DNA of 45,839 bases. It comes from Ruminiclostridium sp. (GTDB lineage: Bacteria; Bacillota; Clostridia; Oscillospirales; Ruminococcaceae). The stretch covers positions 1 through 45,839 of the forward strand of contig JAGBMA010000107.1 of assembly GCA_017635095.1 (NCBI GenBank), written 5' to 3'. Within the stretch, counting starts at the first letter, position 1, and each line of letters opens with the position of its first letter. Made by a program: the position numbers and the translations under genes. Below the pieces are notes generated by a model that was not told where the DNA came from, searched no databases, and saw nothing but the letters and a program-made list of their open reading frames with translations. Below are positions 13,208-32,050 of the stretch, piece by piece.

Positions 13208-13283
13208 CTTTCACCAAAGGGAAACGCAGATGAAGACCACCCGCCTGTAATGGAGCAGGAGTGATCTCCGGAAGATACAGGAA

Positions 13284-13316
13284 CCCCGTACCGCTTTTTC
13301 AGCGATACGGGGTTTT
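13284..13316. terminator. bidirectional terminator between convergent operons
   Basis: CCCCGTA and TACGGGG enclose CCGC-TTTTTC-AGCGA, with TTTT after it on the plus strand. The same hairpin recurs at 15806-15834, 19114-19139 and 21797-21822. Confidence 0.75.
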
Positions 13317-13327
13317 GTAGGGGGTTA

Positions 13328-15190: not shown

Positions 15191-15671
15191 GATCTAAGCT
15201 CCTTTCATCATCGAGAACATCACGAAGCTTATCCCGTCCGTGCTTTAACCGCCATTTTACAGCCGCTGCACTTATCCTCAGCATTACGGCGATCTCGGCG
15301 ACTCCGTAACCTTCGTAATAATAAAGATACAGCGTAGTACGGAGTTTGGGGTTCAGTGACATTAACGCGGTTCTGATTCCGTTGTCATCATTGGTCTTGT
15401 TATCCTGCATTTCTCCCAGTGAGTCAATAGAAACATAGTTTTTGTTCCAATGAGACTTCAGATGATTGAAACTATGGTTTATAGTGCATCTTATCAGCCA
15501 TGCCTTTATATGCTCGTCACTGTTGAAGCTGCCTTGATATGTAAACAGTTTCAGGAAAACATCTTGTGCAATATCCTCTGCATCGGCAGGATTTTTCACT
15601 ATAAACAACGCGGTATCTGTCACCGTTCTGCGATATAGTTCTATGTATCGGTCAAGATCGAGTCCGGACAT
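15180..15671 (-). CDS. RNA polymerase sigma factor, ECF type, unit 1
   Basis: A 163-aa ECF sigma factor: region 2 NPADAEDIAQDVFLKLF, then AWLIRCTINHSFNHLKSHW, and region 4 YYEGYGVAEIAVMLRISAAA ending in VKWRLKHGRDKLRDVL. A GTG at 15689 is in frame. The ATG at 15671 is preferred because AAAGGAAG lies 5-10 bases upstream and MSGLDLDRYIELY aligns with MTESELDRYMRLY and MTGSELERYVRQY of the next two units. Its end overlaps the anti-sigma start by 11 bases. Confidence 0.92.
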   Translation of the reverse strand: MSGLDLDRYIELYRRTVTDTALFIVKNPADAEDIAQDVFLKLFTYQGSFNSDEHIKAWLIRCTINHSFNHLKSHWNKNYVSIDSLGEMQDNKTNDDNGIRTALMSLNPKLRTTLYLYYYEGYGVAEIAVMLRISAAAVKWRLKHGRDKLRDVLDDERSLDHGL

Positions 15672-15692
15672 CGACCCACTTCCTTTCACTAA

Positions 15693-15702
15693 AAAGCGCT
15701 TT
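15693..15702. promoter_or_regulatory. palindrome upstream of sigma unit 1
   Basis: AAAGCGCTTT, a perfect 10-bp palindrome ending 22 bases upstream of the start codon. Comparable palindromes sit at the same place in four other units. Confidence 0.4.
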
Positions 15703-15770
15703 CTGTACTTAAAACAATTGGGAACGGCTAAAAGTATAACTCCTTTTTAAAAATCGGCATTATCAACAAT

Positions 15771-15799
15771 ATTATACACTGCTTTTGCAACAAATGCAA
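15771..15799 (-). promoter_or_regulatory. promoter of sigma/anti-sigma unit 1
   Basis: On the minus strand TTGCAT (15794-15799), 17 bases, TATAAT (15771-15776). The sequence around it (GTTGCATTTG, then AAAAG, then TGTATAATATTG) is almost the same in units 2 and 3. Confidence 0.75.
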
Positions 15800-15805
15800 C
15801 AAAAT

Positions 15806-15834
15806 CCCCGTACCGCTTTTTCAGCGATACGGGG
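15806..15834 (-). terminator. terminator of unit 2
   Basis: CCCCGTATCGCT-GAAAA-AGCGGTACGGGG on the minus strand, followed by ATTTTGTTG. The unit 1 promoter starts seven bases later. Confidence 0.82.
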
Positions 15835-15842
15835 GTTCTGTG

Positions 15843-18485
15843 TTATTCTGCTGTCTCGCCGAGAACGATAGTCTGACCGTACAAGGAGACAGAATGGATA
15901 TTGTCAAGGTCAAGCGGCGCGTCAAACACACCGAACGTGTATTCATAGCTTGAATACTTATCATAATGACCGGTAGAGAGCATCGTATGCGCTTCCTCTC
16001 TTCCGTCAGTGAACACAACAGTGCAGTCTGTGTTCTTCGGGTCAAGGAAGAAGTCGCTGCCGTCCTTTTCGATCACAAATCCCATTGGCGAAAGCGCGAT
16101 CTCCCACCTGCCGAATTCGTCATTTTCTGTAACAGTCTTTATCGGCTCATGTCTCGGAACGGTAAGCGGTACTTCCACATAGCCTGCTCTGCGCTCGACG
16201 TGATCGGTAAGATCGCCGATGTACAGTTTCAGCGTATCGTCCTTGTCGAGCGGAACAAAGAAGCTTGTGTATTTTATGACGCTGCCTTTCTCGTCCGAGG
16301 TTATTTCGATCTTTCCGCTTCCGCACTCCTTTGTAATTGTGGAGTGAGCGCCGAAGAATATGCTGTACGACGGGTCATCTTTGGATTTGTATGACTTATG
16401 CTCATAGTATTCGGGGTCTGTCGAGCGCAGCTCCATTTCCGCCTTGCAGACATGACCGTCATACTGCACCGAGGTGACAATGCCCTTGCTGCCGTCCGCG
16501 AGTGCGAACTCATTACCGACCTCCAGCGCTCTTTCGCAGTTATAGATCTCACAGCTGTTGACTGTTATCGTAACAACATCGTTTATGTCTATCGGGTCAA
16601 GGAACTGATAGAACTTATACGCCTTTCCGTCCGGCATCGCTATCCCGGAAGGTTCATCGACGAGTCCGCGCATTTCTTTCGTACTGCCGTCGGCAAAGTT
16701 TATCGAGACCTCAAAATTAGAGACTGCGTGCGAGAAAGCAACGCCCTCTTCGGTAGAGTAATCCGTCGGTCCGTCTGTCACGATAAAGCTCAGGCTGTAA
16801 GGCGTGAGCACGAATCTGTCAAAACGATAATAAACGCTTCCGGAAACTTCCTTGTTTATCTCACGTTCGATCTTCGGGATATTGCTGTTATAACTTACGG
16901 AGAAGAAGCTGTCGCCGAACGGCACCTCAAGCGAGTCAACAGGTTCAGTGGCGTAAATATTCTGCAGTGTCTCAACAATGCCCTCTTCCGCTCTGTCATA
17001 GCTTATATCCGCAGAAGAGCATCCTGCCGAGTTGTCGGGAAATACATTCGTTATTTGATAAAAATATGCTGCACTGGAAGTCCTTTTTATAGGTTCATCG
17101 TAGCAGGTCTCATAGCGAATGCGCAGATTTACGGTGTCGAACGCATATCCCGTGACGTGAACGCGCTTTCCGTCGCAGTCAAACCACTCGTCGGCAGGCG
17201 TATAGAGCGGAGAGAATTCTATGTCGCGAAACTTTTCGTAATTATCGAGCATTTTCTTGATTTCTTCACTATCTTCGCCGTATATGCCCGAAGCTTCGTC
17301 ACCTGAGAAAGCGATCTCCTCGCCTGCTACCGTTACACTCTCGATATTGTAGATATCTATCGTGTCGGGCTTAAGCCACATCATATAATTAATACAGTAT
17401 TCCGGCATTGCCGCGATCATCTCCGCACCTTCGGCTTCGCTTATTCCGGACTTTCTGAACAGATTATCAAATTCCAGCTGTTCAGCCGGGGTAATGTCAT
17501 CGGGAGACAGACGCAGCTGCATAAAATTGCCGGTATTTGGAAATTCCTCATGTGTGCCGTCTTTATAGTTGATTATAAAGAACTGTGGTTCATGCGCTTT
17601 CTTCAATACCGTATCATCGTCATAATCGCTGATGATCGTGACTCCGAGCGGAGAGACGGTAACGCCCTGTATTCCGGGCTTGTCGGTAACGGCACAGATA
17701 TGCTCCTGCTCTTTCCCGGGTATATAGTATGAGCCGACATGGATAGCTTCTTCGGAAGTTTTTGCTCCGTCCGGCATATACTCGAATGTAATATTGTCTA
17801 TATTTTCGCCTTCACCGGTAAACAACTCCTTAGAGAACACATAATAGTTGTCACCGAGCTCCGGCAGCTTTGCAAACGAACCGTACCAGTGCCTTACAAC
17901 CGTTTCCTGATACTCATAAGGGGTTATTAAGCAAGGGTCTGTATTCCAGGTCTTATTTTCATCAAATTGATAATTCAGCATTTTCGGGTCTGTTTCACGT
18001 TCGCTGTGATAGTCCGCTTTATAGATCACCCTCAGGAAATGCCCGTCATATTCTACACTCTCGATAGTCGCGGTAAGATCACCGAATTCAAGCACATCGC
18101 CCGCCGCTTCAAGCAAATTCCTGCTGTCTCCGCTGTTTACTTGTGCAGTAATAGTCTCATCATGATACCCCGCACCATTGCTGCTCCCGATACCGCCCTC
18201 TTTCAGCCCGCCGTGCTCATTCAGCCAGTTCAGCCCGAATACCGCTCCGGTGAGAACTGCGGCTGCACCCGCAATACCGACCGCCGCGTGAAGTATCTTT
18301 GCGCTTTTTTTCGGCTCAATGTATTCCGGAGTTATCTCCGTGAACTTCATCTGCTTTACATTATCGTCTTTCTTCATATTTTTTGCCCTTTCTAAAACAT
18401 CATTGAATGCTGTTTCATGGTCAGGACAGGAATAATTGCCGCCGAGCTGTGAAAACGCCTGCTTGAATATATCTTTTGTATCCAT
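15843..18485 (-). CDS. very large membrane-anchored anti-sigma-like protein, unit 2
   Basis: An 880-aa protein, the largest of the set. The N-terminus MDTKDIFKQAFSQLGGNYSC followed by PDHETAFNDVLERAKNM is the docking motif shared with units 3 and 4. One membrane helix lies at about 72-92 (VGIAGAAAVLTGAVFGL), then NWLNEHGGLKEGGI and SSNGAGY. The ectodomain of about 770 residues contains at least three repeats. Each holds a conserved phrase of the type VEYDGHFLRV or VQYDGHVCKAEM and a segment like GVTVSPLGVTII or EIALSPMGFVIEKDG, typical of DUF4179/DUF5643-like sensor domains. In-frame ATGs at 18503 and 18494 are possible, but 18485 aligns with the paralogues and has AAAGGA 9 bases upstream. 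Confidence 0.75.
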   Translation of the reverse strand: MDTKDIFKQAFSQLGGNYSCPDHETAFNDVLERAKNMKKDDNVKQMKFTEITPEYIEPKKSAKILHAAVGIAGAAAVLTGAVFGLNWLNEHGGLKEGGIGSSNGAGYHDETITAQVNSGDSRNLLEAAGDVLEFGDLTATIESVEYDGHFLRVIYKADYHSERETDPKMLNYQFDENKTWNTDPCLITPYEYQETVVRHWYGSFAKLPELGDNYYVFSKELFTGEGENIDNITFEYMPDGAKTSEEAIHVGSYYIPGKEQEHICAVTDKPGIQGVTVSPLGVTIISDYDDDTVLKKAHEPQFFIINYKDGTHEEFPNTGNFMQLRLSPDDITPAEQLEFDNLFRKSGISEAEGAEMIAAMPEYCINYMMWLKPDTIDIYNIESVTVAGEEIAFSGDEASGIYGEDSEEIKKMLDNYEKFRDIEFSPLYTPADEWFDCDGKRVHVTGYAFDTVNLRIRYETCYDEPIKRTSSAAYFYQITNVFPDNSAGCSSADISYDRAEEGIVETLQNIYATEPVDSLEVPFGDSFFSVSYNSNIPKIEREINKEVSGSVYYRFDRFVLTPYSLSFIVTDGPTDYSTEEGVAFSHAVSNFEVSINFADGSTKEMRGLVDEPSGIAMPDGKAYKFYQFLDPIDINDVVTITVNSCEIYNCERALEVGNEFALADGSKGIVTSVQYDGHVCKAEMELRSTDPEYYEHKSYKSKDDPSYSIFFGAHSTITKECGSGKIEITSDEKGSVIKYTSFFVPLDKDDTLKLYIGDLTDHVERRAGYVEVPLTVPRHEPIKTVTENDEFGRWEIALSPMGFVIEKDGSDFFLDPKNTDCTVVFTDGREEAHTMLSTGHYDKYSSYEYTFGVFDAPLDLDNIHSVSLYGQTIVLGETAE
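18165..18265 (-). repeat. conserved TM/hallmark coding repeat, copy 2
   Basis: Near-identical DNA to copies 1, 3 and 4, encoding VLTGAVFGLNWLNEHGGLKE. Confidence 0.7.
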
Positions 18486-18486
18486 T

Positions 18487-18963
18487 CTACCCATTCCTTT
18501 CATTTCCGATGATTTTTTTCAGACGGTCTCTTCCGCGCCGAAGTCTCGAACGAAGAGCCTGTTCGCTTATACCGAGCATTTCCGCCAGCTCCTTCACCGG
18601 GTACTCTTCATAATAATGCAGATAAAGAGCAACACGGTATTTCTTGTCAAGCTTCATTATCATCGGTAACAGATCAGATCCCTGTGTCTCGTCTGCTGCC
18701 ATGCCCGACGCGGCTTCAAGCGGACGTGAAAACCTGTACCAATGCGATCTCACATGATCTATGCTTTTGTTTACCGCGCACCGCAGCAGCCATGCCTTGA
18801 TATGCTCGTCATCAGTGAATGACGTACCGCAGGTGTACAGTTTCAGAAAGACCTCCTGCGCTATGTCGTATGAATCGTCCGGATTTTTGCAGCAGCAAAG
18901 AGCGACGGCATACACACTTTTGTAATACAGCCGCATATATCGGTCAAGCTCGCTTTCCGTCAT
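18487..18963 (-). CDS. RNA polymerase sigma factor, ECF type, unit 2
   Basis: A 158-aa ECF sigma factor: MTESELDRYMRLYYKSVY start, region 2 NPDDSYDIAQEVFLKLY, then AWLLRCAVNKSIDHVRSHW, and region 4 YYEEYPVKELAEMLGISEQA with LRSRLRRGRDRLKKII. TAG is followed after one base by the ATG of the anti-sigma gene. The sequence upstream contains a palindrome at 18990-19005 and a CTCATTCG motif at 19014-19021 as well as the housekeeping-type promoter at 19079-19107. Confidence 0.93.
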   Translation of the reverse strand: MTESELDRYMRLYYKSVYAVALCCCKNPDDSYDIAQEVFLKLYTCGTSFTDDEHIKAWLLRCAVNKSIDHVRSHWYRFSRPLEAASGMAADETQGSDLLPMIMKLDKKYRVALYLHYYEEYPVKELAEMLGISEQALRSRLRRGRDRLKKIIGNERNG

Positions 18964-18989
18964 TCCTATCCTTCTTTCCTGCTTATGTT

Positions 18990-19005
18990 TCAGGGGCGCC
19001 TCTGA
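18990..19005. promoter_or_regulatory. palindrome upstream of sigma unit 2
   Basis: TCAGGGGCGCCTCTGA, palindromic except for one pair, ending 27 bases upstream of the start codon. Confidence 0.4.
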
Positions 19006-19009
19006 TAAT

Positions 19010-19021
19010 AAAACGAATGAG
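19010..19021 (-). promoter_or_regulatory. ECF -10-like motif upstream of sigma unit 2
   Basis: On the minus strand CTCATTCGTTTT, similar to CTCATTCGTTAT upstream of the sigma gene at 42001 and CTCATTCGTATT upstream of the one at 27876. Confidence 0.4.
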
Positions 19022-19078
19022 TGTCGGATTTTTGGTCACCTTTTTGAGAAGAAGATCACTTTTGTAACAATTGACAAT

Positions 19079-19107
19079 ATTATACATCACTTTTACAGCA
19101 AATGCAA
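19079..19107 (-). promoter_or_regulatory. promoter of sigma/anti-sigma unit 2
   Basis: On the minus strand TTGCAT (19102-19107), 17 bases, TATAAT (19079-19084). Confidence 0.75.
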
Positions 19108-19113
19108 CAAAAT

Positions 19114-19139
19114 CCCCGTACTGCTTGTGCAGTACGGGG
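19114..19139 (-). terminator. terminator of unit 3
   Basis: CCCCGTACTGC and GCAGTACGGGG around a 4-base loop, followed on the minus strand by ATTTTGTTG. Confidence 0.85.
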
Positions 19140-19145
19140 TTCTGC

Positions 19146-21170
19146 TTATTCTGTTGTTTCGGCTTCTGTATCGCCGTCAGTCGTTTCTTCGGGTAATTCA
19201 TCCTGCTGCATGGTCGGAATGGGTTCCGTGTCACCGTAAACGCACTCGCCGCAGACATATATCTCTTTGACCTGTGCGATATTTAATTTCTCTGAAAGAA
19301 TAAAGTGATATATGTTCTGTGAATTCTCGACAAGCGTTCCGCCCTTGTTTTCAAGCGAATCAAGGTCGATTATGCTTCCGTCGTTCATTACGAGATATGT
19401 GTCGTTTGTGTCAAATCCGACAACTGTTTCACAGTCAAACGTGATCATCACCGAGTAATCTCCAAGCGTCACACTCTCGACGTTTATCTTTTTGCCTGAC
19501 AGAAGCGCGACTTCCTTGCCGACATTATATGTACTCGTTCCTATGTTGGGCAGTTCTTCGGGCGTGAAAACAATAATACCCGTGTTTTTTTCGTCGAATG
19601 GGATAAGCACCTCGCTTGCCCATGTATGGTCGTCCATGAAGTATATCTTTATCGGTTCGTCAAATATTACTCTGTTATAGACGATCTCTCCGATGTAGCT
19701 TACGGTATCTCCGTTCGCACCGAGCTTGTCAACTCTCGAACCGTGTGTTGTATAAGGTTTTTCGGTATTATCGCCAAAAGCCCATATCGGAACGACAGAA
19801 CCGTCCGCAGGAAGTCCGTTCTTGAATGTAACGTCATACTGCAAAACAAGAGTCATTCCGTCAAACGCCAGCCAGTTGACATTTATATCACACTTTTCGG
19901 TCTCGGCGTGCGCATCGGTCAGCGGCATTCTGTCCTCCTCGGGAGGGATATAGAAGCTCTGGAAGCAGTTATAATCAGCTTTCAGTTCTGCGGAAACAGC
20001 TACACATTCGGGTGCTTTTATAGGCAGTGTATATTTTGTACCGTCAGCCACATCAATTAAATCAATATATACTGTGCTTCTTGCCTCCGGATATGTCAAG
20101 TCAGACATCATAAGTATCCTGTCTTCCGAGCGGTACAGCTCATATCCGGTCACTTCTGCTTCATTGCCGGAGACATTTATCTTGGATATATCTGGGTTTT
20201 CACCGATAATATCATAGGCGATACGCACCTTGATTCCGTCAAAATAACACCACCTCGGCTCAACTACGAACCCGTTGAACTTATATCTTGTTCCGTCGGG
20301 GATAGCTACAGCGTATTTCTCCCATTCGATACCGGAATCATATATCATTTTTCCGGTATTTTCATTGACCGCAGGCTGAACATTATCCGCATTCACGGTC
20401 GCAGTGAAGGTATATTCGGGAACATCGAAATCATCATTAACGGTAGGCGGGATTATCAGGTCAATGCTGTCCGCAGGATTTTCCAGTTCAACAGTCATGG
20501 AGCAATTCTTTATTCTTTCCGAAACGGAGAAGCTGTTTGTCACAGTAAATATGTGCTTTATGTTCTCATCAGGTTCATCCATAAAGGAAAAAGCGTCCAT
20601 ATTCTTCATGCCGTTTACAAGCAGGTGCCAACTTTTTTCTGGATCATAATACTTTTCAAGTTCGTTATCAAATAACACGTCCCAATTCAGATTAAGTGTC
20701 TTTCCGTCAAACTCATAGCTGTTTATTGTGACAGTTACGGCTAATGTTCTTAGTTCAAAAGTCGCAGGAACTTCTGTCTTAGCTTTTGATACGGTCATTG
20801 CTTCCGTTGTCGCTGCTTCACTCTGCGCAGGCTCGGTCATATCCTCATGATACCCCGCGCCGTTGCTGTTCTCAATACCGCCCTCTTTAAGTCCCCCGTG
20901 CTCGTTCAGCCAGTTCAGCCCGAATACCGCTCCGGTGAGAACTGCGGCTGTCCCGGCTATGCCTGCGACTACGCTGAGGGCTTTATGTCCTTTTGTTGGT
21001 GTTGGCTGTACTTCATACGCCTGCGTATTGTATGTTCTTTCGTTTTCGTTGTTATTGTTCATTGTTTTTGCCCTTTCCAGTATGTTGTTGACTACTGTTT
21101 CATCATCGGGGCATGAATGTTCTTTCCGGATATCGGAAAAAGCTTTTTTGAAAAACATTTTATAATCCAT
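19146..21170 (-). CDS. large membrane-anchored anti-sigma-like protein, unit 3
   Basis: A 674-aa protein: docking region MDYKMFFKKAFSDIRKEHSC followed by PDDETVVNNILERAKTM, membrane helix at about 64-85 (VVAGIAGTAAVLTGAVFGL), hallmark NWLNEHGGLKEGGI and NSNGAGYH. The ectodomain has repeats beginning like INSYEFDGKTLNLNWDV, VVEPRWCYFDGIKVRIAYDI, VNWLAFDGMTLVLQYDV and VTLGDYSVMITFDC, which suggests four related beta domains of about 110-130 residues. The C-terminal tail is acidic and Thr-rich (EETTDGDTEAETTE). The ATG follows GGAG by 9 bases and overlaps the sigma gene by 11 bases. Confidence 0.76.
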   Translation of the reverse strand: MDYKMFFKKAFSDIRKEHSCPDDETVVNNILERAKTMNNNNENERTYNTQAYEVQPTPTKGHKALSVVAGIAGTAAVLTGAVFGLNWLNEHGGLKEGGIENSNGAGYHEDMTEPAQSEAATTEAMTVSKAKTEVPATFELRTLAVTVTINSYEFDGKTLNLNWDVLFDNELEKYYDPEKSWHLLVNGMKNMDAFSFMDEPDENIKHIFTVTNSFSVSERIKNCSMTVELENPADSIDLIIPPTVNDDFDVPEYTFTATVNADNVQPAVNENTGKMIYDSGIEWEKYAVAIPDGTRYKFNGFVVEPRWCYFDGIKVRIAYDIIGENPDISKINVSGNEAEVTGYELYRSEDRILMMSDLTYPEARSTVYIDLIDVADGTKYTLPIKAPECVAVSAELKADYNCFQSFYIPPEEDRMPLTDAHAETEKCDINVNWLAFDGMTLVLQYDVTFKNGLPADGSVVPIWAFGDNTEKPYTTHGSRVDKLGANGDTVSYIGEIVYNRVIFDEPIKIYFMDDHTWASEVLIPFDEKNTGIIVFTPEELPNIGTSTYNVGKEVALLSGKKINVESVTLGDYSVMITFDCETVVGFDTNDTYLVMNDGSIIDLDSLENKGGTLVENSQNIYHFILSEKLNIAQVKEIYVCGECVYGDTEPIPTMQQDELPEETTDGDTEAETTE
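20851..20950 (-). repeat. conserved TM/hallmark coding repeat, copy 3
   Basis: Near-identical DNA to copies 1, 2 and 4. Confidence 0.7.
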
Positions 21171-21654
21171 GATCGTTTTCTCCTTTTTCCAAAAGCAGTC
21201 TGAGCTGATTTTTGCCGCGTTTTATCCTTGCTCTCACGGCAAATACGCTTATACCCAGTATTTCAGCGATCTCATTGACGGTATATTCCTCATAGTAATA
21301 CAGGTACAACGCAATGCGGCATTTCCTGCTGACCTTCATAAGTATCGGAATAAGACTGTTTTCGTCTTTATTATAGTTCATTCCGCTTGTCTTTTCCGAG
21401 GCGGCTTCCAACGGCAGCGAATATCTGTTCCAGTGTGATCTCAGAATATCCTTGCATTTATTCATAGTACATCGGAGCAGCCATGCTTTAACATGCTCAT
21501 CTTCGTTAAATTTCCCATTATGAAGGTACAGCTTCAGAAATACTTCCTGTGCAATATCACAAGCATCACTCGGATTTTTACAGCCGCACAATGCTGCGCT
21601 GTAAACGCTTGAATAATACTGTCGTACATATCGCTCAAGTTCACTTCCGGTCAT
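21160..21654 (-). CDS. RNA polymerase sigma factor, ECF type, unit 3
   Basis: A 164-aa ECF sigma factor: MTGSELERYVRQYYSSVYSA, region 2 NPSDACDIAQEVFLKLYL, then AWLLRCTMNKCKDILRSHW, and region 4 YYEEYTVNEIAEILGISVFA with VRARIKRGKNQLRLLLE. A longer frame reaches back to an ATG at 21708. The ATG at 21654 is chosen because GAAGGGTAGGA directly precedes it and the N-terminus then aligns with the paralogues. Overlaps its anti-sigma gene by 11 bases. Confidence 0.92.
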   Translation of the reverse strand: MTGSELERYVRQYYSSVYSAALCGCKNPSDACDIAQEVFLKLYLHNGKFNEDEHVKAWLLRCTMNKCKDILRSHWNRYSLPLEAASEKTSGMNYNKDENSLIPILMKVSRKCRIALYLYYYEEYTVNEIAEILGISVFAVRARIKRGKNQLRLLLEKGENDHGL

Positions 21655-21675
21655 TCCTACCCTTCTTTCTGTATT

Positions 21676-21685
21676 AAGGTACCTT
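21676..21685. promoter_or_regulatory. palindrome upstream of sigma unit 3
   Basis: AAGGTACCTT, a perfect palindrome ending 22 bases upstream of the start codon. Confidence 0.4.
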
Positions 21686-21761
21686 TGACAATAACACGAT
21701 CCGGTCATTAAAAATTAGACTTATTTTTGAAAAGTTTTTTAAATTTAGCAAAATCACTAAT

Positions 21762-21790
21762 ATTATACATCAGTTTTACAGCAAATGCAA
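21762..21790 (-). promoter_or_regulatory. promoter of sigma/anti-sigma unit 3
   Basis: On the minus strand TTGCAT (21785-21790), 17 bases, TATAAT (21762-21767). Confidence 0.75.
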
Positions 21791-21796
21791 CAAAAG

Positions 21797-21822
21797 CCCC
21801 GTACCGCTTTTGCGGTACGGGG
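21797..21822 (-). terminator. terminator of unit 4
   Basis: CCCCGTACCGC and GCGGTACGGGG around a 4-base loop, followed on the minus strand by CTTTTGTTG. Confidence 0.86.
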
Positions 21823-21831
21823 ATAGGCTTA

Positions 21832-23811
21832 TTAATCTATGTTTGTTGCAGTCCCTACAATGCCGCCTTCGAGCGCTGTCGGTTCAGTTTCGCCGTCAGG
21901 AAAAGATATCGTAAGGCACGGACCTGTACACCAGCCGGTAGCGCCGACTGCGGCAATAACATCACCTGCGCGCACGGTGTCACCCTCGGTCACATAAAAG
22001 TCGCTGAGATGTCTGTATCTCCATTTTCTTCCGTCAGCCGCCTGTATGGTGATGTAAATGCCTTCTCCATACCCCGGAACGTTTCTGGAGAATGTTTCGA
22101 TAACTGTACCGCTCGTGATCGCCTTTATCGGAACGCCTTCCTCGCCAACGGCGAAATTGAATTTCCTATCGTCGCTGTTTGTCCATTTATCGCCGTCATA
22201 GTATGACACTTTCTCTTTCTCCAGCTTATCAAACGGGAAGCAGTAATCCTCGCCGGCGTACTGTTTCAGAATGTCGATAGCATCGTCACCCTCCCAGTAG
22301 CCTGTCCGCGGGTCGGTAACGCTGATTGCACCTGTCAATACATCAGTCAGACCGCCGATATTCTCAAAGCTCAGAACATACAGCACATTACCGTCATCAA
22401 TAAGTGCCAAAGACCATATATCAACAGTATTGAGACTGCCCTGCACATTTTCTTCCCGTCCATAGTATGTATCGACTGTCAGACCGAGATTGTCGCTGAA
22501 ATATGACTCGTGTTCAAACTTTTCCGGGTCAAACCCGTTCATTTGTGCAAGCCCGCTTATGCGGCCTTCGGGCGTATCTGCAATAAGGATGGTCTGTGTT
22601 GTCAGCTCCGGCTTTTCGCTTTTGCTGTCCTGTGTTCCGATAGTGGTTGTGACAGTGCCGGATTCAGAGTAATTGTCCACGTATTTAGACGATTGTATAA
22701 TATCGCAGCCGTACAGGCTCGTGGTATATATCCTTGCACCGACGCCGAAATCAAGAAGATCGTATCCGTAGGCTTCTCCGGCTTCGGCAAAAGTTTCAAA
22801 GGAAGAAGGCGTATCGCTGCTGACATAAACAGCTACGATCGTTGACTTTTTTTCTACTGCTGCTCCCGCTTCCGGTACTGTCCGTATTACGCAGTTTTCG
22901 GGAACTTCATTACTTTCTGAACGGGTGACGGAGTATTTTATGCCTTTGTTTTGAAGCAATCTCACAGCGTCATCTATATTAAGTCCGGTGATGTCGGGAA
23001 GCTCGAAGAAATCTATCATCGGCTTATACACGAATTTATACTGCTGTCTGTCCGCTTCGATAGGCTGTGTGGTCTTTCCGTCTGTGTTAAGATATTCTAT
23101 TCCCATAGCATAAGCCTTTAAGGGTTCAAGCTTTACAGGTACGGAATAAGTGCAGCGGTGAGTGCAGCTGTCAGCTTCGGGAACTTCTTCTATGCTGAAC
23201 TCCTCGGTAGTATAATCTATGGGGGTCCCGACAGTAAGTTTTACATATTCCGGAGAGTAAGTTTCATAATTATCGCCCGTGTACAGAAGGCTGAATCTTG
23301 CGGTAAATGTTTCACCGTCATATTCTGCTCTGTTCAGCCACACGGTCGCGTCGTGGAACTGCACAGCCTTCCCGTAAAGCTCGCTTATATCCGGCAGTGT
23401 TTCCGGGTCAACAGTATTAGATGCCGGCGCAATGAATTCCTCGCCTTCCTTTGCCGGCATGGTGTACAAGAGTTCCGTTTCCGATGCAGCCGACGAGCCT
23501 GCTCCCGCTCCCTGCACATCCGGACCTTTCAGCCCACCGTGCTCATTCAGCCAGTTCAGCCCGAATACCGCTCCGGCGAGGACTGCCGCTGTTCCGGCAA
23601 TGCCTGCGACTACGCTTATTGCCTTATGCGACTTCTTCGGCTCGATGTATTCCGGAGTGATCTCCGTGAACTTCATCTGCTTTGCATTTTCATGATTTTT
23701 CATTTTTTCTGCCCTTTCCATGATATTGTTCATTACCGTTTTGGTATCGGAAAAGGGGTAATCAGACATTTTAGCGGACAATGCCGCTTCAAACAGCTTT
23801 TTATTATCCAT
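21832..23811 (-). CDS. anti-sigma-like protein with PASTA and degenerate LytM/M23 domains, unit 4
   Basis: A 659-aa protein. The docking region MDNKKLFEAALSAKMSDYPF (with NNIMERAEKM after it) precedes one membrane helix at about 65-86 and the hallmark NWLNEHGGLK. A DUF4179-like segment follows. Residues about 270-331 form a PASTA domain (LPDITGLNIDDAVRLLQNKG, then VIRTVPEAGAAVEKKSTIV). Residues about 546-639 look like a LytM/M23 peptidase fold (GVPIKAITSGTVIE, then YRHLSDFYVTEGDTVRAGDV, then GATGWCTGPCLTISF). Of the usual zinc ligands only the His of YRHLS (about 601) is kept. The HxxxD motif is absent and the HxH of GPHLH is replaced by Cys632 and Thr634, so it is probably a binding rather than cutting domain. 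This suggests peptidoglycan sensing by inference. The ATG at 23811 aligns with paralogues; 23838 is an alternative. Confidence 0.8.
   Translation of the reverse strand: MDNKKLFEAALSAKMSDYPFSDTKTVMNNIMERAEKMKNHENAKQMKFTEITPEYIEPKKSHKAISVVAGIAGTAAVLAGAVFGLNWLNEHGGLKGPDVQGAGAGSSAASETELLYTMPAKEGEEFIAPASNTVDPETLPDISELYGKAVQFHDATVWLNRAEYDGETFTARFSLLYTGDNYETYSPEYVKLTVGTPIDYTTEEFSIEEVPEADSCTHRCTYSVPVKLEPLKAYAMGIEYLNTDGKTTQPIEADRQQYKFVYKPMIDFFELPDITGLNIDDAVRLLQNKGIKYSVTRSESNEVPENCVIRTVPEAGAAVEKKSTIVAVYVSSDTPSSFETFAEAGEAYGYDLLDFGVGARIYTTSLYGCDIIQSSKYVDNYSESGTVTTTIGTQDSKSEKPELTTQTILIADTPEGRISGLAQMNGFDPEKFEHESYFSDNLGLTVDTYYGREENVQGSLNTVDIWSLALIDDGNVLYVLSFENIGGLTDVLTGAISVTDPRTGYWEGDDAIDILKQYAGEDYCFPFDKLEKEKVSYYDGDKWTNSDDRKFNFAVGEEGVPIKAITSGTVIETFSRNVPGYGEGIYITIQAADGRKWRYRHLSDFYVTEGDTVRAGDVIAAVGATGWCTGPCLTISFPDGETEPTALEGGIVGTATNID
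23521..23600 (-). repeat. conserved TM/hallmark coding repeat, copy 4
   Basis: Near-identical DNA to copies 1-3, encoding VLAGAVFGLNWLNEHGGLK. Confidence 0.7.
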
Positions 23812-24292
23812 TGTCCGTATCATTCCTTTCTTTGTCAAGATATTTCTTCAGCTGTGTCCGTCCGCGTTTAAGCCGTGAAGAGACCGCATTTCTGCTTATA
23901 CCAAGTATTTCGGCAGTTTCTTCGACACTGTAGCCTTCGTAATAATGCATATACATGACAATGCGATTGTTTTTTCCGATCTTGTGTATGAGATCGAAAA
24001 CCCTGTCGCCGTAGCTGTCATAATGCACGGTCTCGCTTGCAGCTTCAAGCGGTACAGAATTTCTTCTCCAATGAGACCGGAGCAGATTTTTGCATCTGTT
24101 GACAGTACATCTTATAAGCCATGCTTTTACGTGTTCATCATCATGAAAGCTTCCGCTGTATGTATAAAGTCCGAAGAAAACGTCCTGCATTATATCATCC
24201 GCATCGCTTTGATTCTTAATGTAGCACAGCGCAGTCGAAATTACATTTCCGCGGTACATCTCAATATACCGTTCTACGTTTTTTGCGTCCAA
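23804..24292 (-). CDS. RNA polymerase sigma factor, ECF type, unit 4
   Basis: A 162-aa ECF sigma factor from a TTG start: N-terminus (M)DAKNVERYIEMYRGNV, region 2 QSDADDIMQDVFFGLYT, then AWLIRCTVNRCKNLLRSHW, and region 4 YYEGYSVEETAEILGISRNA with VSSRLKRGRTQLKKYL. TTG at 24292 is preferred to the in-frame ATG at 24364 because AGAGGTGAG lies 9 bases upstream and the product then matches paralogue lengths. The ATG is still within the predicted transcript and cannot be excluded. Confidence 0.88.
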   Translation of the reverse strand: MDAKNVERYIEMYRGNVISTALCYIKNQSDADDIMQDVFFGLYTYSGSFHDDEHVKAWLIRCTVNRCKNLLRSHWRRNSVPLEAASETVHYDSYGDRVFDLIHKIGKNNRIVMYMHYYEGYSVEETAEILGISRNAVSSRLKRGRTQLKKYLDKERNDTDNG

Positions 24293-24314
24293 TCCGGTCT
24301 CACCTCTTTTCCGT

Positions 24315-24329
24315 TGAAAGGACCTTTCA
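24315..24329. promoter_or_regulatory. palindrome upstream of sigma unit 4
   Basis: TGAAAGG-A-CCTTTCA, perfect around one central base. The same palindrome without the central base lies upstream of the sigma gene at 27876, in both cases preceded by TATATA. Confidence 0.5.
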
Positions 24330-24394
24330 TATATAACACAATCCGGACACGCCCGAAATGTCACGGATAAATCAAATTCGGCAATTTCAACAAT

Positions 24395-24423
24395 ATATTA
24401 TCATACTTTTGTGCAGAATGCAA
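24395..24423 (-). promoter_or_regulatory. promoter of sigma/anti-sigma unit 4
   Basis: On the minus strand TTGCAT (24418-24423), 17 bases, TAATAT (24395-24400). Same -35 box as units 1-3. Confidence 0.65.
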
Positions 24424-24438
24424 CATTTATTGCAGATA

Positions 24439-24467
24439 TTGAAATTATATAACAATTATTGTATAAT
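24439..24467 (+). promoter_or_regulatory. promoter of the 24581 operon
   Basis: TTGAAA (24439-24444), 17 bases, TATAAT (24462-24467). Its -35 lies only 15 bases from the -35 of the divergent unit 4 promoter. The leader to the ATG at 24581 is about 105 bases. Confidence 0.68.
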
Positions 24468-24580
24468 ATTTTTGAAAAAGTGTTACTTTTTGACCGATTT
24501 TGTTGTATATAAGGGTAGAGGGGGAGCAATTCAAAGACTTTGGGACATCTGATGAACGCCGGGGAGAAAGAGAGAGGAAG

Positions 24581-25141
24581 ATGACCGACGAAAAGATAAT
24601 CGAGCTGTACTTTTCCCGTTCGGAGGACGCGATTGCCGAGACAGACAAAAAGTACGGCGCATACTGCCGCACAATGTCGCATAATATCACCGGAAGCCGT
24701 GAGGACAGCGAGGAGTGCGTGAACGATACATATTTAAAGGTGTGGAATGTTATCCCGCCGCAGCGTCCGCCGAGGTTCGGCGCTTTTGTTGTGCGGATAT
24801 GCCGTAACATTGCGCTCAATATGCGGAGGGCGAAAGGTATGCTGAAACGCAGCGAGGAATATGAGGCGATACGCTTCGAGGAAGTGAGCGAGTGCCTGCC
24901 GTCAAAGGAAAATGTTGAAAAGACGCTCGATGAGAAAGCTGCAATAAAAGCGCTGGAGAAATTCCTGTCCGGGCTTTCTCCCGAAAAGCGTTCAATGTTC
25001 GTGCGCAGGTACTTTTATTTCAGCAGCTACGCGCAGATAGCGGCAGACCTCGGCGTTTCCGAGGGCAAGGTGAAAATGACCGTGAGCCGCACCCGCGAAA
25101 AGCTGCGGGAATATCTTGAAAAGGAGGGTATCGACCTATGA
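24581..25141 (+). CDS. RNA polymerase sigma factor, ECF type (different subgroup)
   Basis: A 186-aa sigma factor: region 2 GSREDSEECVNDTYLKVWN, then RPPRFGAFVVRICRNIALNM, and region 4 FLSGLSPEKRSMFVRRYFYF with AQIAADLGVSEGKVKMTVSR. The SEECVNDTYLKVW form marks a clostridial subgroup distinct from the five other units of the island. An earlier in-frame ATG (24500) is less likely. GAGAGGAAG directly precedes 24581 and MTDEKIIELYFSR is the usual start. The stop overlaps the next gene as ATGA. Confidence 0.92.
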   Translation: MTDEKIIELYFSRSEDAIAETDKKYGAYCRTMSHNITGSREDSEECVNDTYLKVWNVIPPQRPPRFGAFVVRICRNIALNMRRAKGMLKRSEEYEAIRFEEVSECLPSKENVEKTLDEKAAIKALEKFLSGLSPEKRSMFVRRYFYFSSYAQIAADLGVSEGKVKMTVSRTREKLREYLEKEGIDL

Positions 25142-25938
25142 CACGCGAGGACAGATTTCTCGATGTGTTCGGGAAGATAGACGACAAATATCTTGTTACG
25201 GCTTTGCCGGGAGCCTTTGAGCCCGATCTCGGGACTGCTGTTATACACGCCGACAAAAGTATCGAAGCTGTGGAGATCACCGAAAAGGATATCCGGCGCT
25301 ATCGGATATTGCAGGCTGTGAAATACTCCGCGGCGGCTGCGGTTGTAATTGCTGCGGGTGCGCTGCTGTGTGCTAACTGGGATAAGATAGCGGTATCGGG
25401 CGGTGAGCAGTCCACTGTTTCATCACAGGACACAGGTTTTCCCGGAGCCGCGTCACAGGGTACAATGGACACGGTCATTTCATTGTCCCCGCCTATCCCG
25501 ATGATAACTTCCACGGAGGGCGATACGGGAGAGAACAGCGGCAATTACGATCCGTTTTTCAACAGCACCGGAGACGAAACAGAGACAACAGATGATAATA
25601 CCTTACCGGAGAATTTCAGCATTGCGGACGGACGCTATGAGACCGACATTTCCGCTGATATTGACTTTGAAGGGCAGCTTCAGGACGGAAGGATATTGTT
25701 CCGCTGGTCGCGCTACACCGGCGGGGAATACGATGTTACCGTGGACGGGTACACTCTGATATGCTCGGAGAACGGTACCGAATATTTTGACGTAGGTGAT
25801 TTTGCGGCCGACAGCAAGGGGTGCGTAGTAAACCTTGACGGCACAGAGCAATTCCCGCTGTACTTCATAATACAGTGCCGGTTCAATTACGAGGGAATGG
25901 CTTTTCTCGGATATTCGGCGCCTTTTAAGATAGAGTGA
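25138..25938 (+). CDS. membrane-anchored anti-sigma-like protein
   Basis: A 266-aa protein coupled to the sigma gene by ATGA. The cytoplasmic part (residues 1-58) has MTREDRFLDVFGKIDDKYL. One membrane helix lies at about 60-78 (AVKYSAAAAVVIAAGALLCA). Then comes a long Ser/Thr/Gly-rich linker (about 85-165) and a small C-terminal beta domain (DGYTLICSENGTEYFDVGDF). The gene position and topology make it the probable anti-sigma factor of the 24581 sigma factor. It does not resemble the large anti-sigma proteins of the neighbouring units beyond topology. Confidence 0.7.
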   Translation: MTREDRFLDVFGKIDDKYLVTALPGAFEPDLGTAVIHADKSIEAVEITEKDIRRYRILQAVKYSAAAAVVIAAGALLCANWDKIAVSGGEQSTVSSQDTGFPGAASQGTMDTVISLSPPIPMITSTEGDTGENSGNYDPFFNSTGDETETTDDNTLPENFSIADGRYETDISADIDFEGQLQDGRILFRWSRYTGGEYDVTVDGYTLICSENGTEYFDVGDFAADSKGCVVNLDGTEQFPLYFIIQCRFNYEGMAFLGYSAPFKIE

Positions 25939-27875: not shown

Positions 27876-28385
27876 GTGAATGACAATGATTTTGAAAGCT
27901 GTGTACATAAATACCGGAACACTGTATTCGGTACCGCACTGTGCTTTGTAAAAAATCCGAGTGACGCGGATGATATTTCGCAGGAGGTTTTTATAAAGCT
28001 CTATAATTATTCCGGTCAGTTCGACAGTGACGAGCATATCCGTGCATGGCTTATCAGATGTACCGTTAATCTGGGCAAAAGTCTTTTGCGTTCATATTGG
28101 CACAGATTTTCTGCCCCGCTTGAAGAAGCAGGCGACAAAGTTCACTATGACAGCTGTACAGAGCATACGGATATGCTAAAACTGCTGAACAGGCTGAGTC
28201 CCAAAATACGCGCGGTCATGTATCTTCATTACTATGAAGGTTATCCGGCAGCGGATATAGGCAAAATGCTCAATATAAGCGAAAGCGCGGTTATGGCGAG
28301 GCTCAGCAGAGGCAGAAAGCGCCTCAGGTCATTATTGCTTGAAGAAAGGAATGAAGATGATAATGGATTACAGGAATATATTTGA
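27876..28385 (+). CDS. RNA polymerase sigma factor, ECF type, unit 5
   Basis: A 169-aa ECF sigma factor, GTG start with GGAAGGAAG upstream: MNDNDFESCVHKYRNTVFGT, region 2 NPSDADDISQEVFIKLYNY, then AWLIRCTVNLGKSLLRSYW, and region 4 YYEGYPAADIGKMLNISESA with VMARLSRGRKRLRSLLL. It belongs to the same subgroup as units 1-4 but is on the opposite strand, 3.6 kb away from unit 4. It overlaps the following anti-sigma gene by 23 bases. Confidence 0.92.
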   Translation: MNDNDFESCVHKYRNTVFGTALCFVKNPSDADDISQEVFIKLYNYSGQFDSDEHIRAWLIRCTVNLGKSLLRSYWHRFSAPLEEAGDKVHYDSCTEHTDMLKLLNRLSPKIRAVMYLHYYEGYPAADIGKMLNISESAVMARLSRGRKRLRSLLLEERNEDDNGLQEYI

Positions 28386-29340
28386 AAGCTCATTGAACGA
28401 GGCACGTGAGACTACTCAGCTCCCCGATGACGACAAGTTTATTAAGATCGTTAAAGAAAGGGCGGTTAATATGGAGAAGAAAAAGATAAGATCAAAGAAG
28501 CCGGCTGTTATTGCGGTTTCGATAGCGGCTGCGGCAGTGCTGACGGTTTCTGCGGGGGCATTGGTCAACTATTTTCATCAGCGATCTGTGGATATATTTT
28601 TCCCGGACGTTTCGGGAACACAGACAGAAACACTTATAGATGAAGATAGTCCTCTCACCTCCGCAAACAAACATTTCAGGATAACACTTGACAAAGCATA
28701 TTATGACGGTGATAACCTTACCTGCATAATGACGGCGGAATCGCTTGACGGAACGCTTATGACCGTGCCCGATATACAGGCTTGTCATGACGGACAGTTC
28801 ACAGCAGGTTCGTATCCGCTGCATTATGATATGTCGGGCGGACAGTTTCGCAGTCTGGATTTAGTCAAAAGCACGGAAACTCCGTTCGTTGCTCATATCT
28901 CGGAATATGAGCTGAAACGAATGGGAGTTGCGGGCGGTTTTGAAACTCTTGAGGGCGAGACGTATATAAGATTCGGAAAGCATCTTGGAGACGGCATATT
29001 CGACGGTATAGAGCTTCGCGTAAGCGTTGAAAAAAATGTTGAAACAGCAGAAGTGTTCAGCGAAAACGGCGATAAGCTCATTATGACGCAGATAGGATTT
29101 TACTCCGATGAAATATCCGTACTGCCGAAAATGTCGGAGATCAGAAGCGGAGAATCTCATACATTCCCGGAAATAAAGCTCATACGAAACGACGAAACAT
29201 TTAAGGAGTTTAATGAAGGTGATTATCCGTACTCTATGTGGTCGGATACATGGTGCTATTTGCTGTTTCCCAAGTTGATACAGCTTGACGAGTACAGCGG
29301 TATCGAAGTGGACGGAGTTCGTTATCTGAAAAACAGTTGA
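28363..29340 (+). CDS. membrane-anchored anti-sigma-like protein, unit 5
   Basis: A 325-aa protein. The N-terminus MDYRNIFESSLNEARETTQL with IVKERAVNMEKK corresponds to the docking part of units 1-4. The helix AVIAVSIAAAAVLTVSAGAL (about residues 47-68) is followed by an ectodomain of about 255 residues. It lacks the NWLNEHGGLKE hallmark and is half the size of its paralogues. The start at 28363 is chosen by alignment. 28357 is better spaced from AAAGGA, so the exact start is open. Confidence 0.75.
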   Translation: MDYRNIFESSLNEARETTQLPDDDKFIKIVKERAVNMEKKKIRSKKPAVIAVSIAAAAVLTVSAGALVNYFHQRSVDIFFPDVSGTQTETLIDEDSPLTSANKHFRITLDKAYYDGDNLTCIMTAESLDGTLMTVPDIQACHDGQFTAGSYPLHYDMSGGQFRSLDLVKSTETPFVAHISEYELKRMGVAGGFETLEGETYIRFGKHLGDGIFDGIELRVSVEKNVETAEVFSENGDKLIMTQIGFYSDEISVLPKMSEIRSGESHTFPEIKLIRNDETFKEFNEGDYPYSMWSDTWCYLLFPKLIQLDEYSGIEVDGVRYLKNS

Positions 29341-30219: not shown

Positions 30220-30254
30220 ATTGGATTTAGGACAGAAATATTTTGAGGTGTGAG

Positions 30255-30791
30255 ATGCTTTCATTATACTTAAGCTTAGTCGATAACGAGGAACAGCGCA
30301 CCCTCGTTGAACAGATTTATTCTGACTGTGAGCAGATAATGTACCGCACGGCGTACTCTATTCTGCATAACAAGCAGGACGCTGAGGACGCGGTACACGA
30401 CGCTTTTTTGCGGATAGTTTCCGATATTGACAGGATAGCTTCGGTCGATCCCGGCAAACGCAGAAATTATGCGGTAATTGTTGCGAAAAATATTGCGATT
30501 GACCATTACAGAAAAAATAAAAAACAGGTGGACATCGAAGATGTTCCGGAGTATGCGGACGAGGAGACCGATGTTGAACGCTCGGCTTTCGGTGAATATG
30601 ATGCTGCGGCTCTGAACGAGGCTCTGTTAAGGCTGCCGGAGAACTATCGTGAGGCTCTTATAATGTATTACTACCATGATATGCCGCTCGAAAGCGTTGC
30701 CGGAACATTCGGAATAAGCTATGAGGCTGCAAAAGCGAAACTGTTCAGAGCACGGAAGAAACTTTATGTACTGCTGAAAGAGGGTGAATAG
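30255..30791 (+). CDS. RNA polymerase sigma factor, ECF type
   Basis: A 178-aa ECF sigma factor: MLSLYLSLVDNEEQRTLVEQ, region 2 ILHNKQDAEDAVHDAFLRIV, then YAVIVAKNIAIDHYRKNKK, and region 4 RLPENYREALIMYYYHDMPL with AAKAKLFRARKKLYVLL. The start follows GAGGTG and matches the sigma factor at 42001 nearly residue for residue over the first 40 positions. An upstream ATG (30243) is less likely. TAG is followed after one base by the ATG of the first anti-sigma gene. Confidence 0.94.
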   Translation: MLSLYLSLVDNEEQRTLVEQIYSDCEQIMYRTAYSILHNKQDAEDAVHDAFLRIVSDIDRIASVDPGKRRNYAVIVAKNIAIDHYRKNKKQVDIEDVPEYADEETDVERSAFGEYDAAALNEALLRLPENYREALIMYYYHDMPLESVAGTFGISYEAAKAKLFRARKKLYVLLKEGE

Positions 30792-30792
30792 C

Positions 30793-31010
30793 ATGATCTG
30801 TGATTCATTCTATGAAGCGCTTGCTATGCAGGCTGCCGCGGCAGAAGCGGCGATACCGGATATGCCGGAGCATAGATTTTCGCTGCGCTATAGGCGGAAG
30901 AAAAAAGTGCTTATCAAAGCCTATGAGAAGTCAAAAGAACAGAGCAGCAGCTTTCTGAGTACCTTTCACAAGCTGAGACTGCATCAGAAGATAAGGGCAG
31001 CAGTGCTTAT
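30793..31010 (+). repeat. duplicated anti-sigma N-terminal coding segment, copy A
   Basis: About 95 percent identical by eye to 31836-32050. Similarity drops sharply at the membrane-helix codons. Confidence 0.8.
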
Positions 31011-31812
31011 CACCGTGCTTATGCTTCTTCTTATATCCGCAGGTTCCGTGTTTGTAAACTACAGCATAGGAGGATTTTCCGGTTACAGGCAGTCAACGCA
31101 TACCGATGTCAGCTTCGACAACTGGGAGGGTTCACCCGAAACACTTTATCCGCGATATAGTCTGACGTATGACCTTAGCGGCTGGAACAAGGAAATACTC
31201 TGTGATGAGAAGAACAGATACTCCGAACAGTATAAAATCGGAAACAAGTATATTATCTATACCTATGAAACATGGGATAGATATACAGAGCATGATCCGG
31301 AATCTGATTTTGATGAGATGCACCCGGGCGGTGAGTTTGTTCAGGACAGAACACTGCATCATATAAATGCGGACGGTTCGGAGAAGCTTATCTGGACAGA
31401 CGGGTCTTATTGGCTGTCTCTTGAATATGCCGGGATCACTTATGCGGAAGCGATGAAGATACGCGGATCATCTTACGCTCCTGCATACAGGATCACATAC
31501 GATATGAGTGACTGGAATATGGAAGTAGTCAGCGATGACTTCCTGATGCGCTGGGTAGCCTATGACAGAAACGATCATTATTTTGACTTCGTAGTGGAGA
31601 TAAAGGAAGCATATCAGAACGTGCGCCTGAACACCGAGGGAACGGAACCTGAGAGCAGGGAAGTGAACGGACATGAAGCATTATATTTTGTGCAGCCGGA
31701 CGGTGTGTCACAGTATCTCGCGTATGATAACGGTGATTATATTTTTGAGTTTGTTTTTGATATTGAATATGACGAGGCTTTGAAAATAATAGATTCGGTA
31801 AAGTTTATGTGA
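30793..31812 (+). CDS. anti-sigma factor with two DUF4367-type domains
   Basis: A 339-aa protein. Residues 1-65 are the basic docking part (MPEHRFSLRYRRKKKVLIKA), about 75-97 the membrane helix (AAVLITVLMLLLISAGSVFV), then two successive DUF4367-like domains (YSLTYDLSGWNKEILCDEKN and, later, YRITYDMSDWNMEVVSDDF), where relatives have one. AGAGGGTG precedes ATG 30793; a GTG nine bases earlier is less likely. The first 220 bases are almost identical to the next gene. Confidence 0.86.
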   Translation: MICDSFYEALAMQAAAAEAAIPDMPEHRFSLRYRRKKKVLIKAYEKSKEQSSSFLSTFHKLRLHQKIRAAVLITVLMLLLISAGSVFVNYSIGGFSGYRQSTHTDVSFDNWEGSPETLYPRYSLTYDLSGWNKEILCDEKNRYSEQYKIGNKYIIYTYETWDRYTEHDPESDFDEMHPGGEFVQDRTLHHINADGSEKLIWTDGSYWLSLEYAGITYAEAMKIRGSSYAPAYRITYDMSDWNMEVVSDDFLMRWVAYDRNDHYFDFVVEIKEAYQNVRLNTEGTEPESREVNGHEALYFVQPDGVSQYLAYDNGDYIFEFVFDIEYDEALKIIDSVKFM

Positions 31813-31835
31813 ATCCTTAAAAGGACGGTGAGAGT

Positions 31836-32050
31836 ATGATCTGTGACACATTCTACGAAGCGCTTGCTATGCAGGCTGCCGCGGTAGAAGCGGCGATACC
31901 GGATATGCCGGAGCATAGATTTTCGCTGCGCTATAAGCGGAAGAAAAAAGCGCTTATCAAAGCCTATGAGAAATCAAAAGAACAGAGCAGCAGCTTTCTG
32001 AGTACCTTTCACAAGCTGCGGCTGCGGCAGAAGATACGGGTGGCGGTGCT
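31836..32050 (+). repeat. duplicated anti-sigma N-terminal coding segment, copy B
   Basis: Partner of 30793-31010. Confidence 0.8.

Follow-up and report, generated by a model that had tools for sequence, protein, structure and literature searches.

A candidate anti-sigma factor, here called P0001, is encoded on a 45,839-nucleotide (nt) stretch of a Ruminiclostridium sp. assembly (contig JAGBMA010000107.1, positions 1 to 45,839; hereafter the window) by a gene that overlaps that of an extracytoplasmic function (ECF) sigma factor. Comparison of P0001 with its relatives suggests that the sigma factor and the cytosolic segment of its membrane partner form a constant unit, and that the ectodomain has been exchanged between loci; this is the main new result of the analysis. 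We read P0001 as a membrane-anchored anti-sigma receptor that senses on the wall side through an exchangeable ectodomain, with the sigma factor and cytosolic segment as output unit, and place the probability of this reading at about 0.62.

Domain architecture of P0001

The P0001 gene and its sigma partner have the following features.

21832-23811, minus strand: reading frame of P0001, candidate anti-sigma factor, 659 amino acids
23804-24364, minus strand: ECF sigma partner of P0001 (Sigma70_r2, Sigma70_r4_2), overlapping the P0001 start
23641-23811, minus strand: presumed cytosolic segment of P0001, residues 1-57, co-varying with sigma
23542-23628, minus strand: predicted single membrane helix of P0001, residues 62-90 (low-confidence AlphaFold2 helix plus conserved hydrophobic block)
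22819-23004, minus strand: PASTA domain of P0001, residues 270-331 (Pfam)
21901-22143, minus strand: M23/LytM-like domain of P0001 without zinc site, residues 557-637 (Pfam Peptidase_M23)

An earlier note, made from the DNA alone, had proposed that this frame joins a PASTA domain and an inactive M23/LytM domain to a membrane anchor in an ECF pair. The check it suggested, a profile search with PASTA (PF03793) and Peptidase_M23 (PF01551) and inspection of the active site, confirmed both domains above their cut-offs (PASTA, E 1.7e-12, 47.5 bits against a curated cut-off of 23.2; Peptidase_M23, E 8.1e-16) and found the zinc site gone. By family sequence and fold the C-terminal domain belongs with M23: this part of P0001 matches lysostaphin and LytM in a PDB sequence search, and its structural model (mean predicted local distance difference test score, pLDDT, 67.3) resembles M23 structures, with EnvC and SpoIIQ among the structural matches. 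Residues 268-331 match PASTA kinases in the same PDB search; the best NCBIfam match for the PASTA domain is of the Stk1 type, far under the whole-protein cut-off. The full-length structure prediction (14 rows; mean pLDDT 43.1) is too poor for use, and the stretches between the membrane helix, PASTA and M23 domains accordingly carry no fold assignment. A segment of about 60 residues precedes the one predicted membrane helix, which supports the proposed anchor. The sigma partner matches the sigma70-ECF model TIGR02937 (E 1.9e-24, 86.1 bits against a cut-off of 42.9), and the proposed ECF pairing proved general in the family described next.

A family of sigma-paired membrane proteins

A profile of the first 100 residues matched 18 of 71 genomes of the genus at E 0.001, 15 of them strongly; weak partial matches alone were found in three (G148, G173, G175). 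Among 394 sampled genomes of the order, the N-terminal family was found at E 1e-6 in the P0001 genome only. The family thus appears confined, in the sampled genomes, to one genus of uncultured Ruminococcus-like bacteria. For the stronger genus matches, rather than for all matches, 56 stretches were fetched; the loci searched held 82 N-terminal hits, of which 72 (E <=1e-9) were kept as members and 10 weaker ones dropped. An ECF gene lies upstream of 69 of the 72 members at a spacing of -26 to +14 nt, and the other three stand at contig ends. The 25 named loci come from metagenome-assembled genomes (MAGs) of uncultured Ruminococcus, Ruminiclostridium or Clostridia, and a ruminant gut origin is indicated for 14 of them if RUG names, which we take to denote the rumen, are counted. 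The P0001 genome itself carries at least eight paralogous pairs, four of them in the window; outside it are four further long members (on contigs C8, C33, C75 and C115) and a weaker one on C82, and partial matches occur on C10, on C146 and at window position 28363.

The ectodomains of the 72 members are varied. Pfam detects M23 in 19, PASTA in 7, Big_14 in 6, DUF5643 in 3, H_lectin in 2 (best E 0.00087, weakly lectin-like) and Sortase in 1. PASTA and M23 occur together in L122, L130, L045 and L128, among ten members scanned singly, and L115 has PASTA in a gene cut by the contig end. Two members carry two tandem M23-like domains (L130:304-2883, minus strand; L160:12579-15221, plus strand). In another (L081:5983-8018, plus strand) the M23-like domain lies in a second, overlapping frame, apparently through a frameshift.

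Loss of the M23 active site

A whole-protein search of the bacterial family to which the genome belongs (148 genomes, 27 with a match) returned, outside the P0001 genome, matches to the M23 part only; L049, the one such locus read, encodes an ordinary M23 protein. M23 references from the 26 loci so found were aligned with 21 M23-like domains from the 72 members. The references retain HxxxD in 26 of 26, the first His of HxH in 26 of 26 and the second in 25 of 26. P0001 has S and K at the HxxxD positions and C and T at the HxH positions, and its HxxxD stretch is divergent, with no His and an Asp nearby. Neither H nor D occurs at the aligned HxxxD positions in any of the 21 family domains (the D column is a gap in 10). 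The second His of HxH is likewise missing from all of them, whereas four have the first; the His of YxHxS is present in 20. LytM enzymes bind zinc through both HxxxD residues and through the second His of HxH; all three ligand positions are therefore lost in P0001. The earlier note had called the domain inactive with one zinc ligand left: the loss of the site stands, and the remaining His, that of YxHxS, is presumably not a ligand. Six other family domains have a His a few residues away from the HxxxD position (RTHDEW and variants) and one has TFCHSE; these displaced residues, which we did not treat as ligands, may represent a remodelled metal site. Several members, but not all, carry two Cys in what was the HxH loop; the idea that these form a new metal or disulfide site was rejected as a general feature for that reason.

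The ratio of nonsynonymous to synonymous substitution rates (dN/dS) was 0.14-0.35 across ten comparisons, and 0.207 and 0.266 for two M23 domains alone, which places the members tested under purifying selection; the M23-like domain is therefore maintained in those cases. Maintenance of an inactive enzyme domain would also suit a role in protein docking. In EnvC and NlpD an M23-like domain docks with and recruits or activates a wall hydrolase, and the domain of P0001 could be a module of this kind rather than a peptidoglycan sensor. We regard this as possible and rather doubtful: a domain placed next to PASTA on a membrane protein linked to a sigma factor, in a family where 6 of 72 ectodomains carry immunoglobulin-like (Ig-like) domains and 2 of 72 weakly lectin-like ones, suits sensing.

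Evidence for ectodomain exchange

Four sigma/anti-sigma pairs with a common N-terminal part and membrane helix stand in tandem on the minus strand of the window (13328-24364). The transmembrane (TM) coding block of each holds one copy of a 144-nt direct repeat, D1 (four copies, 69-81% identity to the reference copy), and a 77-nt terminator and promoter repeat, D2, lies between consecutive pairs (three copies). Beside the P0001 pair the array comprises the following.

21160-21708, minus strand: ECF sigma, second pair
19146-21170, minus strand: paralogous anti-sigma candidate, second pair, with a different ectodomain
18487-18963, minus strand: ECF sigma, third pair
15843-18485, minus strand: paralogous anti-sigma candidate, third pair
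15180-15689, minus strand: ECF sigma, fourth pair; a 98% identical sigma bears a P0001-type ectodomain in another genome (L122)
13328-15190, minus strand: paralogous anti-sigma candidate, fourth pair
23491-23634, minus strand: D1 copy 4, in the TM-coding block of P0001, where 5' exchange breakpoints concentrate
20850-20993, minus strand: D1 copy 3
18165-18308, minus strand: D1 copy 2
14870-15013, minus strand: D1 copy 1
21735-21811, minus strand: D2, terminator-like hairpin and TTGTTGCA..TATAAT promoter of the next pair; the DNA match of locus L080 resumes here
19052-19128, minus strand: D2
15744-15820, minus strand: D2

Breakpoint, correlation and cluster analyses used the 58 of 72 members that have a sigma gene and a recognisable TM end. 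Across their 1653 pairs, sigma identity is correlated with that of the cytosolic segment (rho 0.73, permutation p 0.0005) and not with that of the ectodomain (rho 0.04, p 0.18). A member's closest relative by sigma is one of its three closest by cytosolic segment in 50 of 58 cases, but one of its three closest by ectodomain in 12 of 58. Ectodomains from more than one cluster occur in 9 of 11 multi-member sigma clusters (in one of the nine, L133/L134, both genes are cut by contig ends and the score ratio is 0.61 against a threshold of 0.7), and 8 of the 12 multi-member ectodomain clusters are spread over two or more sigma clusters.

Individual loci show the same pattern in both directions. L122 shares the P0001 ectodomain (97-99% identity over residues 146-495, 90% over 496-659) on a sigma that is 45% identical, with 30% identity over residues 1-57. 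Conversely, L109:2916-4589 has a 99% identical sigma and identical residues 1-57 (100%), followed after residue 96 by segments of 21-46% identity. At the DNA level (BLAST alignments of 100 nt or more and 85% identity or more, or of more than 400 nt), L080 (RUG12593) tracks the window from 33179 down to 18962 in stretches that are 95-99% identical. The alignment breaks off within the TM codons, at 23582, and is taken up again at 21811, immediately beyond the stop codon; a second gap opens at 20842, right behind the TM codons of the second pair, and closes at 19139. Two neighbouring ectodomains are thereby replaced, with window-like flanks on both sides. In L098 the fourth sigma locus (15804-14870, 96%) is joined to the P0001 ectodomain (23464-21895, 97%), L101 has the 20963-19143 ectodomain (95.6%) attached to a different sigma, and L091 follows the window unbroken from 22268 to 17156 at 96.7%.

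The TM-coding block is where breakpoints are concentrated; the clearest cases also show them close to the stop codon. Twenty-five pairs, each from two different genomes, have sigmas at least 90% identical, and in 16 of these the DNA match breaks off no more than 60 nt from the TM end; such pairs share members, and the counts by cluster are the safer measure. Some of the 16 still have later ectodomain parts in common (L105 and window:15846 are one such pair), which makes the ectodomains mosaic in their own right. Of 17 pairs followed beyond the stop codon, five match again there (two are L109 against the window; the other three match for 92, 92 and 167 nt), three share the end of the ectodomain, four run off the contig and five find no downstream match.

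Short-read MAG assemblers might produce such a pattern by misjoining ectodomain and sigma at the repeated TM block, and the MAG origin of the named relatives, the four copies of that block in the window, the 12 of 72 members cut at the 3' end by a contig end and the nine pairs just described that run off or lose the match would all fit. Several results make an artefact of this kind improbable. L080 would require four misjoins on a single 10.6-kb contig, all leaving open frames and matching in positions and flanks, and the shared ectodomain ends and the matches renewed beyond the stop codon would have to be accounted for. In six of seven trios the overlapping homology between sigma relative and ectodomain relative amounts to 17 nt or less where the two parts meet (no result came from the seventh), a figure that concerns sampled relatives, with approximate alignment ends and a true donor possibly outside the sample. 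Partners also lie on long contigs (window at least 45.8 kb, L046 39 kb, L112 43.7 kb).

Possible route of exchange

With D1 at the TM blocks and D2 between pairs, an ectodomain cassette can have homology on both sides. A strict terminator hairpin is found in 20 of 60 members, and the stem motif CCCGTA/CCCATA near the stop codon in 37 of 60. Among eight paralogs of the P0001 genome, the share of identical codons given the same amino acid is 0.636 in the TM block and 0.642 just after it, against 0.448 in sigma. This would fit recombination at the TM block; it is weak evidence, because the cytosolic segment is also raised (0.581).

A dedicated site-specific system of the invertase or shufflon type could instead switch ectodomains within the cell and give phase variation. 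Boundaries near the TM block and stop codon would suit it, and a serine recombinase gene (L045:4281-6041, minus strand; Resolvase, Recombinase, Zn_ribbon_recom) lies about 1 kb from a family sigma gene; a single recombinase by a single locus may, however, be chance. We think such switching unlikely: 5' breakpoints spread from -167 nt to beyond +100 nt about the TM end instead of falling at one site, and no inverted repeats of at least 30 nt were found in window 13000-24700, a search that did not extend to silent, start-less cassettes. The scatter of breakpoints and the lack of such repeats in the array favour homologous over site-specific recombination.

That the membrane protein is a surface protein merely co-transcribed with the sigma gene would fit the lack of any known anti-sigma domain by Pfam (E <=1) or NCBIfam (E <=0.1), but is very improbable, since the N-terminal 57 residues track sigma and not the ectodomain through exchanges, as in L109, and the correlation between sigma and cytosolic segment is that expected of a docking domain.

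Promoter-like elements upstream of the sigma genes

Two kinds of promoter-like element precede the sigma genes, represented at the P0001 locus as follows.

24333-24363, minus strand: ECF-like promoter candidate before the P0001 sigma gene, TGACA N18 TGTGTTAT
24395-24424, minus strand: divergent copy of the sigma-A-like family promoter, 5 mismatches

The sigma-A-like element (TTGCA..TGC...AAAA......TATAAT, at most 4 mismatches, at most 220 nt upstream) precedes 52 of the 69 sigma genes, where shuffled sequences gave a mean of 0.05 of 69. A longer form with at most 2 mismatches occurs nine times in the P0001 genome (reversed-pattern control, 0). Eight of the nine lie, by position, before sigma genes of the family or its sisters, which suggests a shared regulator of the family operons; the remaining one, on C13, is found some 0.5 kb upstream of a phosphoglucomutase/phosphomannomutase gene. 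A partly palindromic, TTGCA..TGCAA-like promoter stretch precedes many family operons (window 15771-15802, 19079-19110 and 21762-21793, minus strand).

Nearer the gene, an ECF -10-like motif is present in 49 of 69 cases (shuffled mean 4.8, maximum 10), and 40 of 69 have a form of it that a palindrome-like stretch follows (shuffled mean 0.5, maximum 3). The motifs were derived from these same related sequences, and the shuffles exclude composition effects only. We infer that this second element is an ECF autoregulatory promoter. Between the ECF-like -10 and the ribosome site lies a short palindrome of the GAAAGGTCCTTTC, GAAAGCGCTTTC or GAAAGATCTTTC type, varying with the sigma group; it occurs at window 24316-24328 (minus strand) and before many family sigma genes and is a possible operator.

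A proposed model of P0001 as a wall-reading receptor

In the mechanism that we propose, the cytosolic N-terminus of P0001 would hold the ECF sigma factor made from the overlapping gene, and the wall-side PASTA and zinc-site-less M23 domains would bind peptidoglycan or a wall-acting ligand. Binding or loss of the ligand would lead to stepwise proteolysis, including an intramembrane step, and the sigma factor so freed would drive its own operon from the ECF-like promoter. Sigma and cytosolic segment would be the constant output unit and the ectodomain an exchangeable input cassette, flanked by the repeated TM-coding block and, in many loci, the repeated terminator/promoter block, and moved between sigma loci by recombination. 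As the earlier note had proposed, P0001 may plausibly be a direct wall-damage sensor. Whether the family amounts to a reassortable repertoire, with constant output units and variable cassettes such that any signal could be rewired to any sigma regulon, is in our judgement evenly balanced; the same even odds apply to the cassettes (inactive M23, PASTA, Ig-like, perhaps lectin-like) recombining at the TM and terminator/promoter blocks.

Several observations weigh against the receptor reading. The N-terminal segment is identified by no Pfam (E <=1) or NCBIfam (E <=0.1) hit, so the label "anti-sigma" rests on gene order, topology and co-variation; zinc-finger, RskA-like and DUF4179 anti-sigma profiles gave no Pfam hit in P0001 up to E 1. 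The relatives are MAGs or assemblies, and single-junction cases could be assembly chimeras. No exchange is seen in 2 of 11 sigma clusters, and 9 of the 25 same-sigma pairs break away from the TM end (one 167 nt before it, others at +104 and +107, six more than 350 nt on); the five pairs that find no match past the stop codon belong here as well. L080 also lacks or replaces three further stretches (about window 30233-29593, 29214-27826 and 27388-24664), so its change is not confined to ectodomains and the locus is plastic in general. An M50 protease is encoded in the P0001 genome, but the same search was positive in 14 of 14 control genomes and adds little. A genome-wide search with the ECF-like promoter pattern found two places, one being the sigma gene itself; with one extra place, and one also in the reversed control, no regulon is indicated.

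Other ECF genes in the window

Three further ECF sigma genes with neighbouring partners bring the window to at least seven ECF genes including the four family sigmas.

27876-28385 and 28339-29340, plus strand: ECF sigma and partner
30243-30791 and 30784-32516, plus strand: ECF sigma and partner
24500-25141 and 25138-25938, plus strand: ECF sigma and partner

Among their partners, one is family-like at its N-terminus without the TM cassette, and one of the sigma genes is accompanied by two DUF4367 proteins. A 1727-residue protein with DUF5724, DUF4132 and DUF7737 is encoded at window 32974-38157 (plus strand).

Comparison with known systems

The usual picture of ECF sigma/anti-sigma pairs is one of fixed lines from input to output; in this family inputs and outputs seem to be swapped as modules across loci and genomes. 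If this is true, bacteria could rewire which surface signal drives which transcription programme. The natural chimeras offer material for testing how an ectodomain signal passes across the membrane, and the family provides a set of inactive domains of wall enzymes that selection has retained, probably as receptors.

The RsgI proteins of Clostridium thermocellum resemble the family: one genome holds several pairs, and each protein joins a cytosolic inhibitor at its N-terminus and a sensing ectodomain, both putative in the present family, through a single membrane helix; RseP and ClpXP act on RsgI (PMC12203970). The RsgI partner is sigma-I and its sensors bind plant carbohydrates, whereas the partner in the present family is an ECF sigma factor; Pfam, searched up to E 1, gives no RsgI domain in P0001. 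No account of ectodomain exchange was found in the portion of the open-access literature covered. RsiV binds lysozyme through an ectodomain of another kind and is, to our knowledge, not part of such a multi-locus family. Like P0001, RsiV of Bacillus subtilis and C. difficile is a membrane protein paired with an ECF factor; it is an anti-sigma-V that reads a wall-related signal, as P0001 would, and is subject to regulated intramembrane proteolysis (PMC5014341, PMC9044953). The combination of PASTA, M23/LytM and anti-sigma segment, which the earlier note had held to be undescribed, was likewise not found in the open-access literature as far as it was covered. PASTA domains serve as wall-facing sensors in the PASTA kinases (PrkC/PknB/Stk1), where the output is a kinase; in P0001 the linked output is an ECF sigma factor. 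EnvC and SpoIIQ keep a LytM fold without part or all of the zinc site and act in division or sporulation complexes, whereas the LytM-like domain of P0001 is carried by a sigma-linked membrane protein.
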